The notes beneath the pieces were generated by a model. The model ran no database searches. It was not told the DNA's origin and saw nothing but the letters and a program-made list of their open reading frames with translations. Below, piece after piece: positions 502 through 1,668 of a stretch of DNA of 9,492 bases (the first letter of the stretch is position 1; every line of letters starts with the position of its first letter). The stretch is from JBFLYE01 sp040756715 [NCBI: bacterium] (lineage in GTDB: Bacteria; UBA9089; UBA9088): contig JBFLYE010000190.1 in the NCBI GenBank assembly GCA_040756715.1, positions 2,838 through 12,329 of the forward strand. Reading direction: 5' to 3'. Made by a program: the position numbers and the translations under genes.

Positions 502-574
502 GCGGGAGTAACTCAGCTGGCAGAGTGCAACCTTGCCAAGGTTGAAGTCGAGGGTTCAAATCCCTTCTCCCGCT
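502..574 (+). tRNA. tRNA-Gly(GCC)
   Basis: A full cloverleaf can be folded. The acceptor stem is GCGGGAG (502-508) with CTCCCGC (567-573), and the discriminator is U574, as usual for bacterial tRNA-Gly. The D stem is ACTC/GAGT with GG in the loop. The anticodon stem is CAACC/GGTTG with loop TTGCCAA, giving anticodon GCC. The T stem is GAGGG/CCCTT with loop TTCAAAT. The 3' CCA is not encoded. It lies between the LamG fragment and thioredoxin on the same strand. Confidence 0.96.
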
Positions 575-661: not shown

Positions 662-988
662 ATGGCAATTGAATTGACAGACGAAAATTTTAAGAAGGAG
701 GTTCTTGAAGCTGAAATTCCAGTAGTAGTAGATTTCTGGGCACCCTGGTGTGGGCCATGCAGAATGCTTGCTTCGGTAATTGATGAACTGGCAGAGGAGT
801 ATAAAGAAAAGGTAAAAATAGGCAAGCTCAATGTTGACGAGAATAGAAATATAGCAATAGAATATGGGGTAATGAGTATTCCAACCCTTAAGTTTTTTAA
901 TAAGGGACAGATTGTCAATGAGATAATTGGTGTAGTAAATAAGGATGTTTTGAAAAAGAAGCTTGATAAATTAATCTCCGGGGTGTAG
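662..988 (+). CDS. trxA: Thioredoxin
   Basis: A 108-residue thioredoxin of standard length. It is a cytoplasmic dithiol protein that reduces protein disulfides and is recharged by thioredoxin reductase. The active site WCGPC spans residues 29-33, the buried acidic residue is D24 in VVVDFWA, and the cis-proline loop MSIPT carries P74. There is no signal peptide, so it acts in the cytoplasm. The ATG at 662 gives the expected N-terminus but has no ribosome-binding site; transcription may start almost at the ATG. The unusual feature is the 3' end: the last ten bases (979-988), which encode the C-terminal SGV and include the TAG stop, are also the first ten bases of tRNA-Pro. No reductase gene is nearby. 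Confidence 0.96.
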   Translation: MAIELTDENFKKEVLEAEIPVVVDFWAPWCGPCRMLASVIDELAEEYKEKVKIGKLNVDENRNIAIEYGVMSIPTLKFFNKGQIVNEIIGVVNKDVLKKKLDKLISGV

Positions 989-1054
989 CGCAGCCCGGTT
1001 TAGCGCGCCTGCTTTGGGAGCAGGAAGTCAGAGGTTCAAATCCTCTCACCCCGA
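979..1054 (+). tRNA. tRNA-Pro(UGG)
   Basis: The acceptor stem is CGGGGTG (979-985) with CACCCCG (1047-1053), and the discriminator is A1054. The anticodon stem is CCTGC/GCAGG with loop TTTGGGA, giving anticodon UGG. The T arm is AGAGG-TTCAAAT-CCTCT. CCA is not encoded. The first ten bases overlap the end of the thioredoxin coding sequence, and the thioredoxin TAG (986-988) lies at the end of the acceptor stem and in the linker after it. No separate promoter is obvious, so it may be cut from the thioredoxin transcript. Confidence 0.96.
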
Positions 1055-1094
1055 AAAGGAAAGAAAAATAAAATGGGACAAAAGAGGATTTGAA
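1035..1094. repeat. 12-bp inverted repeat of the tRNA-Pro T arm
   Basis: TTCAAATCCTCT (1035-1046, T loop plus 3' T stem of tRNA-Pro) recurs as AGAGGATTTGAA at 1083-1094, with 36 nt between the arms. The second arm lies in the intergenic region between the convergent tRNA-Pro and flavoprotein genes. It may be a remnant of an inverted tRNA duplication. The match ends exactly at 12 bp on both sides. Confidence 0.5.
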
Positions 1095-1112
1095 GCCCGA
1101 AGCGAAGCGAAG
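1092..1112. repeat. GAAGC pentamer repeat in convergent intergenic region
   Basis: GAAGCGAAGCGAAG (1099-1112) holds almost three GAAGC units, preceded by an imperfect one (GAAGCC, 1092-1097). GCCC (1095-1098) could pair with GGGC (1112-1115) across a 13-nt loop. The rest of the 68-bp region 1055-1122 holds only the T-arm inverted copy and AT-rich sequence. No clear terminator with a U-run is visible on either strand. Confidence 0.4.
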
Positions 1113-1122
1113 GGCCGAACTA

Positions 1123-1668
1123 TTAGATTTTATTAGGCGAAAAACGAGCAAGTGCGAGTTTTTGAGCCTTAGAAAGCCAAGATTGTGAAGCAATCGTTTG
1201 TTTTAAGGACTCCAAAGGTTCATCATCTCTTAAGATAATTCCATCTATAAGCCTTGCCCCAATTGTTGCAAAGAATGCCCTTATCACATCAATACATCCA
1301 GGGAAATTTTCTTTTTTTTCACAGGTTAAGATAAAAAATCCAAGGGCTTTTTTTTCTATTTTTCTATTCCATAAAACTTGGCATCGATCAATCATAGCCT
1401 TAAGATGAGAGGGAATGCCTTTAAAATAAACAGGCGAGGAAAGAATAATTATATCAGATGAAATAAGGCTTGGGATTACCTCCTCCATATCGTCCTTGAT
1501 ATTGCATATTCCATTTCTGCTACATTCAAGGCAGCCAGAGCAGGGTTTGATATTTTTGTTTCTAATATAGAGCCTTTCAGCCTCTACATTTTTAAGCAGG
1601 ATGTTTAATGCTTTTTCTGATCTTCCATTTTCCCTTGGGCTTCCATAAATCGCAAGAAGCTTACCCAA
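1123..1668 (-). CDS. Isf-like iron-sulfur flavoprotein / NAD(P)H-dependent FMN reductase family
   Basis: A 181-residue flavodoxin-fold protein, last gene of the minus-strand cluster. The phosphate-binding loop GSPRENGRSEKAL (residues 9-21) and SSPVYFKGIPSHLKAMIDR (77-95) are the FMN-site signatures of the NADPH-dependent FMN reductase / iron-sulfur flavoprotein family. Between them is a compact cysteine motif, C43-x2-C46-x2-C49-x5-C55, the arrangement that binds a [4Fe-4S] cluster in archaeal Isf. The likely role is electron transfer between ferredoxin-type donors and a flavin acceptor; the true substrate is unknown. The start is TTG: the codon just upstream in this frame is TAA, there is no ATG or GTG option before the FMN loop, and the TTG overlaps the end of porG by 8 nt, suggesting translational coupling. 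The overlap with an oxidoreductase subunit fits a shared ferredoxin-linked process. Confidence 0.85.
   Translation of the reverse strand: MGKLLAIYGSPRENGRSEKALNILLKNVEAERLYIRNKNIKPCSGCLECSRNGICNIKDDMEEVIPSLISSDIIILSSPVYFKGIPSHLKAMIDRCQVLWNRKIEKKALGFFILTCEKKENFPGCIDVIRAFFATIGARLIDGIILRDDEPLESLKQTIASQSWLSKAQKLALARFSPNKI

Follow-up and report, generated by a model that had tools for sequence, protein, structure and literature searches.

A thioredoxin gene in this stretch of DNA ends inside the gene for the tRNA that follows it. This raises the question of what becomes of an RNA that carries both: can the message and the tRNA be obtained from one molecule, and does the arrangement tie the two products together or is it simply tolerated? 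We analysed the window, that is, the whole stretch of 9,492 nucleotides, which comes from genome G000, and searched 61 genomes with the window thioredoxin. Four others belong to the same order as G000: G001 (same genus), G002 (same family), and G003 and G004 (another family). The genomes of the order measure 1.4–2.6 Mb.

The thioredoxin stop codon belongs to tRNA-Pro

The window protein is a thioredoxin: it matches PF00085 at E = 2.3e-34 and TIGR01068 above its cut-off, and its translation carries the WCGPC active site. It is of normal length, the family profiles stopping at residues 102–103 of 108. The RNA that follows has the cloverleaf, the UGG anticodon and the C1:G72 pair of a bacterial tRNA-Pro(UGG), with a score of 67.7 bits; C979 pairs with G1053 (C1:G72), and A1054 is nucleotide 73. 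The coordinates of the two features are listed in Table 1.

The gene closes with the codons ATC TCC GGG GTG TAG. The initial annotation had described its last ten bases, TAG included, as the 5′ end of the tRNA, and this is exact: they are nucleotides 1–10 of tRNA-Pro. As read from the DNA, the window thioredoxin thus has no private stop and uses U8-A9-G10 of the following tRNA. The gene and the tRNA share a strand and overlap, with the stop within the mature tRNA, and relatives keep the arrangement.

Two further features of this region were noted. The spacer ahead of the thioredoxin gene in G000 (575–661) is AT-rich and has no Shine-Dalgarno-like sequence; one is present in G001, G003, and G004. 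On the minus strand, an ORF antisense to tRNA-Pro (915–1193) encodes GVRGFEPLTSCSQSRRAKPGC, which we take to be the type of spurious protein that antisense tRNA sequence yields.

Table 1 Features of the thioredoxin/tRNA-Pro region, in window coordinates
Feature	Position	Strand	Basis or remark
tRNA-Gly(GCC), upstream partner in tRNA-Gly/thioredoxin/tRNA-Pro	502–574	+	ARAGORN and Rfam; same order in relatives
Thioredoxin gene, 108 aa, stop included	662–988	+	PF00085 and TIGR01068
Promoter-like TTGACG-18-TAGAAT inside thioredoxin	834–863	+	10/12 consensus matches
tRNA-Pro(UGG), nt 1–73, CCA not encoded	979–1054	+	ARAGORN and Rfam
Thioredoxin stop TAG = tRNA-Pro U8-A9-G10	986–988	+	
Second in-frame TAG, in the D loop of tRNA-Pro	1001–1003	+	
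Degenerate copy of a tRNA-associated element	1083–1195	+	Covariance model, G000:C190:3920-4032, 49 bits
Left repeat of the element, inverted; its 12 nt exactly complement T-arm bases 1035–1046 of tRNA-Pro	1083–1094	+	

The overlap is conserved in the order

A search of related genomes for the same overlap had been proposed with the initial annotation. In the order, all six thioredoxin copies, from all five genomes, have the overlap and stop at the same tRNA-Pro UAG. A stop lying ahead of the tRNA in relatives had been named as one observation that would speak against the reading, and for thioredoxin none was seen in the five genomes of the order. The conservation spans considerable divergence: the proteins of the four relatives share 81, 69, 58, and 58% of their amino acids with the window protein, and the thioredoxin tails of the order vary in length and sequence (SGV; IGV; SALSEDGA; SASSELNSGV), all entering the same UAG. 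A tRNA-Gly(GCC) lies upstream of the gene in all five genomes, the contig of G002 carrying only its 3′ end.

G001 holds two copies of the gene in tandem, both overlapping tRNA-Pro. The whole unit of tRNA-Gly, thioredoxin, and tRNA-Pro is repeated there with a period of 991 bp and an identical protein (L002; G001:C31:14650-16180), which reflects either a true duplication or an assembly error.

Outside the order, no thioredoxin stop was found inside a tRNA at any of 25 examined loci. The same was true of all 165 same-strand thioredoxin matches at 160 further loci, viral contigs included, where the smallest gap to a tRNA was 5 nt.

Other genes of the order end inside tRNAs

We surveyed 160 distinct tRNAs in the five genomes of the order (the genome search had counted 190), naming the genes by a family search of representatives and the remainder by similarity. 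The stop-in-tRNA overlap characterizes the order and is not peculiar to thioredoxin. In all five genomes cdsA ends within tRNA-Ala(CGC); its stop is a UAG at tRNA nucleotides 8–10 in four of them and, in another frame, a UAA at nucleotides 13–15 in G001. The gene for ribosomal protein L21, rplU, ends in the anticodon loop of tRNA-Met(CAU) in three of the five (G000, G001, and G002; L032, L039, and L040). Its UAA consists of the last anticodon base and the next two bases, so that the genes overlap by 38–39 nt and about 12 tRNA-encoded residues follow the L21 domain. The same UAA arrangement is seen where ogt ends in tRNA-Arg(CCU), in G000 and G001. Single genomes add ilvH of G000, which ends at U8-G10 of tRNA-Val(UAC), an ftsB-like gene of G002 that ends inside tRNA-Phe, and a clan AA aspartic-protease gene of G001 (below the curated cut-off) that ends in tRNA-Asp. 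Overlaps of 1–2 nt occur at rpmG/tRNA-Trp, a Nudix gene/tRNA-Val(GAC), and ilvH of G001. Some candidates were not credible as genes, such as 93-aa ORFs before tRNA-Thr(CGU) with no Pfam hit, and these were not counted.

Within the available flanking DNA, rplU is not followed by such a tRNA in G003 and G004, nor is cdsA or rplU in eight other genomes of the phylum. At the 3′ end of rplU in G003 (L493), the L21 tail VPLA and the DNA GTGCCATTAGCTTAA show similarity to the 5′ end of the tRNA-Met located behind rplU in G000, and this tail is possibly the relic of a lost tRNA. Another gene of the survey codes for a fusion of a DnaJ domain with IspF, 252–254 aa long (L037:736-1497 in G004, with orthologues L036, L055, and L274); it abuts tRNA-Thr(UGU) in four genomes, the domain test being that of the G004 protein.

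The initial annotation had suggested that the overlap would link tRNA supply to a redox protein. The same arrangement at cdsA, rplU, ogt, ilvH, ftsB, and others leaves that link unsupported. A link specific to thioredoxin was rejected on the same grounds, and a regulatory meaning of the overlap is not supported.

Enrichment relative to other bacteria

How unusual is the arrangement? We counted upstream ORFs of at least 100 aa and used acceptor pairing to correct the tRNA starts, which yielded no corrected start for 8 tRNAs. Overlaps of at least 3 nt were found at 16 of 144 tRNAs in the order, against 6 of 240 in the six genomes used for comparison (Fisher p = 9e-4). The 16 represent 6 distinct gene–tRNA pairs of shared ancestry, so that p-values here overstate independence. 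With uncorrected ARAGORN starts the figure for the order is 18 of 144. Of the outside overlaps, two belong to three further members of the phylum (2 of 108 tRNAs) and four to three genomes beyond it (4 of 132). Among tRNAs with a qualifying same-strand upstream gene, a gene end inside the tRNA or at most 10 nt from it occurred at 32 of 105 in the order and 11 of 170 in the others (p = 2e-7, with the same reservation about independence). tRNAs with less than 400 nt of upstream sequence were dropped (16/160 in the order, the thioredoxin locus of G002 among them, 8/116 in the phylum, and 0/132 in the others). ftsB of G002 (88 aa) and rpmG (53 aa) were too short for the length limit, and of the two identical thioredoxins of G001 the second was left out.

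Six outside cases mean that the overlaps are not confined to the order: purA/tRNA-Lys and response regulator/tRNA-Gly (G017), GHMP kinase/tRNA-Gln (G041), and deaminase/tRNA-Ser plus two copies of one transposase ORF (G028). Of the 25 outside candidates listed, 9 were put through the family search. The arrangement recurs in bacteria and is enriched in the order. We found no description of it in the excerpts available from the open-access literature, those of PMC8204192 and PMC6581868 included, and one may be in print elsewhere.

The stop itself is a feature of tRNAs generally: nucleotides 8–10 read TAG in 94 of 154 tRNAs from the order, and six other genomes give 139 of 246. Any gene lacking its own stop that runs into such a tRNA in the matching frame will therefore end there.

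Two proposed, exclusive fates for one transcript

We infer that one transcript carries tRNA-Gly, thioredoxin, and tRNA-Pro. The presence of tRNA-Gly upstream of the gene in all five genomes would fit co-transcription. No terminator-like site was found in positions 1–1300, which is little informative, as shuffled sequences give only 0.8.

If co-transcription holds, the proposal that one molecule could give either product and not both is sound. In the first fate, ribosomes would read to nucleotide 10 of an unfolded tRNA-Pro and terminate normally, and a ribosome terminating at nucleotides 8–10 would have to keep the acceptor strand open. In the second, RNase P would cut ahead of nucleotide 1 and free tRNA-Pro, leaving the thioredoxin message nonstop. 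tmRNA–SmpB is the known remedy for nonstop mRNA and would clear it.

That such a cut would produce a nonstop thioredoxin mRNA had been claimed at the outset. The logic stands, since a cut before C979 would strip the stop and leave a message ending in ...AUC UC, and the parts are present in most genomes of the order; the process itself is a prediction. Class A RNase P RNA was found in four of the five genomes (not in G004, a genome 78% complete), tmRNA above the cut-off in four, and SmpB in all five, so the parts for a cut followed by rescue exist. In G002, which has SmpB, the best tmRNA match scored 36.6 bits, under the cut-off; a missing contig may account for the shortfall.

Both products are probably needed from this locus, because each genome set of the order has one tRNA-Pro(UGG) gene (34, 36, 30, 34, and 26 tRNAs surveyed, the identical tandem pair of G001 counted once) and the sole other thioredoxin-like match in G000 is weak (E = 4e-6). 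A tRNA is stable, and an mRNA is short-lived and translated during transcription. Both products could thus be attained in sufficient amount without dedicated control.

Gene ends drift across tRNA boundaries

The position of the gene end relative to the tRNA differs among relatives for several of these genes. Measured from ARAGORN starts, the gap between ilvH and tRNA-Val(UAC) is −10, −1, and +1 nt in G000, G001, and G002, where the proteins are 77–88% identical. The gap between the ftsB-like gene and tRNA-Phe is −10, +3, and +2 in G002, G003, and G004, the latter two proteins being 30–33% identical to that of G002. For dnaJ-ispF and tRNA-Thr the gaps are +3, +3, +1, and −1 in G000, G001, G002, and G004; after acceptor correction the G004 gene has a gap of 0 and abuts the tRNA. 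The stop ahead of the tRNA that was absent for thioredoxin is therefore seen in relatives for ilvH (1 nt before) and ftsB (3 and 2 nt before).

We consider the best explanation of the whole, and on balance a probable one, to be tolerated spacer erosion, with two exclusive fates per transcript and without dedicated control. In tightly packed transcripts such as tRNA-Gly, thioredoxin, and tRNA-Pro, the spacer between gene and tRNA would have eroded and the private stop been lost. This loss would do little harm because the tRNA sequence provides stops in the entering frames seen, and the overlap would then be retained mainly through tolerance. The ends of ilvH and ftsB, which fall inside the tRNA or before it among relatives, look like erosion and not like a dedicated circuit. 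Spacer erosion is likewise the likely history of the thioredoxin stop in tRNA-Pro. As a counterpoint, the thioredoxin and cdsA ends stay inside the tRNA in all five genomes, for thioredoxin down to 58% protein identity. This could reflect selection for the overlap, since point mutations in the tail could bring back a stop.

A promoter-like sequence inside thioredoxin

The conflict between the two products would hardly arise if tRNA-Pro came mainly from its own promoter within the thioredoxin gene, on a separate RNA. We regard this as possible, though doubtful. The promoter-like sequence of Table 1 lies about 115 nt ahead of tRNA-Pro and is kept in G001 and G002 as TTGACG-18-TA(G/A)AAT, but its second hexamer is missing in G003 and G004. 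The stretch also encodes the conserved thioredoxin motif NVDENRNIA, so that its conservation is explained by the protein. Such sites are, moreover, frequent in this AT-rich region, with 12 on both strands against 4.1 ± 2.3 in shuffles.

A structured element downstream of tRNAs

Many tRNAs of the order are followed by a structured element that is apparently undescribed. Its left repeat is complementary to the T arm of the preceding tRNA; a hairpin and a second stem follow, and the unit is sometimes present in tandem. Complete units measure 74–137 nt (examples are L036:1636-1770, L239:1677-1791, L270, and L272). Complementarity of the left repeat is perfect across 9 nt for 29 of 154 tRNAs in the order, in copies lying about 12–67 nt behind the tRNA. 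In 19 of these 29 the T-arm sequence recurs at the right end, mostly as a direct copy of tRNA nucleotides 53–73. The window copy has no right end.

A covariance model built from 16 copies gave 42 matches in the five genomes of the order, two of them opposite-strand readings of places already counted, and none in a further eight from the phylum; scoring was limited to the first 150 candidates of each genome. Among the 20 element loci listed, 16 had a same-strand tRNA ending about 25–63 nt upstream, three had one about 170–210 nt upstream (two of these being further tandem copies), and one was a weak partial match with no upstream tRNA. RNAalifold gave 28 pairs, 13 of them changed on both sides in at least one sequence. 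Across 39 tRNAs, of which three belong to G007, the repeat matched its own tRNA at 8.77 of 9 positions, and none of 2000 permutations exceeded 8.21; the measured match is biased upwards by the choice of cases with at most one mismatch. At the Rfam gathering cut-off the window element matched no described RNA family; four element loci searched at E up to 1 gave only tRNA and one chance hit, and nothing fitting was found in the literature.

Three observations concern single loci. In G007, outside the order, a tRNA-Cys (L352) is followed 63 nt downstream by a similar inverted repeat, and 18 nt of the tRNA 3′ end recur there as a direct repeat, although the element model has no match in G007. In G004 tRNA-Gly(GCC) and thioredoxin are separated by a complete element (L005:395-530), whose right end is followed directly by the thioredoxin start. 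In the window, the 3′ end of an FMN reductase-like gene (1123–1668, minus strand) lies inside the degenerate copy (1123–1195), and the C-terminal residues of its product appear to come from element sequence.

Could the element act as a regulated switch? It would pair with the T arm of tRNA-Pro, keep the tRNA unfolded and uncut and so spare the thioredoxin message, until trimming of the element let the tRNA fold and be cut. The left repeat exactly complements 12 nt of the tRNA-Pro T arm, and folding predicts that the element, if co-transcribed, would unfold tRNA-Pro: in the fold of 940–1180 pairing between T arm and element replaces the cloverleaf, and with the element present the predicted acceptor-stem pairing drops from 0.99 to 0.00. 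The fold of 940–1180 is, however, only 2 standard deviations below shuffles, of which 11 of 200 fold at least as well, and tRNA-Pro is transcribed before the element and could fold first. In G000 the repeat accompanies 6 of 7 overlapped tRNAs and 7 of 27 others (p = 0.007), and in G000, G001, and G002 together 10 of 19 and 16 of 77 (p = 0.009), the counts of overlapped tRNAs including 1–2 nt overlaps. A 26-nt core of the element occurs three times in G000, behind the tRNAs that follow thioredoxin, cdsA, and rplU. The association is absent in G001 alone (p = 0.34) and in G002 alone (p = 1.0), however, and in G003 and G004 the repeat is missing from all 6 tRNAs of the overlapped set, which includes dnaJ-ispF of G004. 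The thioredoxin overlap itself is kept without the element, the repeat behind tRNA-Pro being poor in G001 and G002 (4 and 2 mismatches of 9). The element also stands behind many tRNAs that are not overlapped, and the window copy lacks its right end. We consider the switch improbable. As an explanation of the overlap, the element was rejected because it is absent at the overlapped tRNAs of G003 and G004.

A broader form, which we rate slightly lower still and would not expect to hold, makes tRNA maturation at trxA, cdsA, rplU, ilvH, and others a decision point for the mRNA, tipped by the order-specific, T-arm-matched element refolding the tRNA. If true, a tRNA-processing switch would couple tRNA supply to protein output, and tmRNA would clear the losing message.

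That the overlap is unreal, through assembly error, a TAG that is not a stop, or a spurious tRNA, is scarcely credible and was rejected: the five genomes are draft assemblies of 200–330 contigs each, but they are separate and agree, so that all five would have to share one artefact, the tRNA-Pro score and the normal end of the thioredoxin speak against it, and in the window the 108-aa ORF, the PHP gene, and ribH also end in TAG (table 11).

Discussion

The arrangement can be set beside several known systems. The arfA gene of Escherichia coli gives a nonstop mRNA through RNase III cleavage or through termination inside the ORF (PMC10107115). The likeness would be that RNA processing within the coding region removes the stop and the product relies on ribosome rescue; there, however, the cut is made by RNase III and the gene encodes a rescue factor repressed by tmRNA (PMC10107115). 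In the order RNase P, working on a tRNA, would make the cut; no feedback is known, and the product is a thioredoxin, not a rescue factor under tmRNA control. The predicted RNase P site before nucleotide 979 would fit the position of an arfA-type processing site inside the ORF.

In human mitochondria, RNase P excision of tRNAs that flank genes sets the 3′ end of the mRNA and may leave an incomplete stop (PMC9674279). Thioredoxin likewise lies between tRNA-Gly and tRNA-Pro in all five genomes, and RNase P RNA was found in four. In the mitochondrial case polyadenylation completes the stop (PMC9674279). In the order the tRNA contains the complete stop codon together with as much as 39 nt of the gene, a comparable repair is not known, and poly(A) added to the predicted end ...AUC UC would not directly create a stop.

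Loss of spacers in compact genomes has been described for Blattabacterium, with 139 overlapping regions (PMC2768785). Neighbouring genes there overlap by a few bases, as in the order; the excerpted text describes overlaps generally and does not single out gene ends in tRNAs (PMC2768785). The genomes of the order are less reduced than genomes of this type.

The element, too, has partial counterparts. One is the tyrT/rtT repeats of E. coli; another is the tRNA fragments that integrating elements leave behind (PMC9897764). The likeness to the element is that the tRNA 3′ end recurs behind the tRNA, at times as tandem copies. The element of the order differs in that each genome has it behind numerous different tRNAs, its inverted repeat corresponding to the tRNA ahead of it, and its units are too short for an integrase gene.

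One practical consequence is that gene callers that mask tRNAs may shorten such genes. For the biology of the order, the overlaps provide a natural and conserved set of bacterial genes, a ribosomal protein gene among them, whose message and downstream tRNA would not both be obtained intact from one RNA. With this set, the competition of translation, RNase P, and trans-translation for one transcript becomes directly testable.
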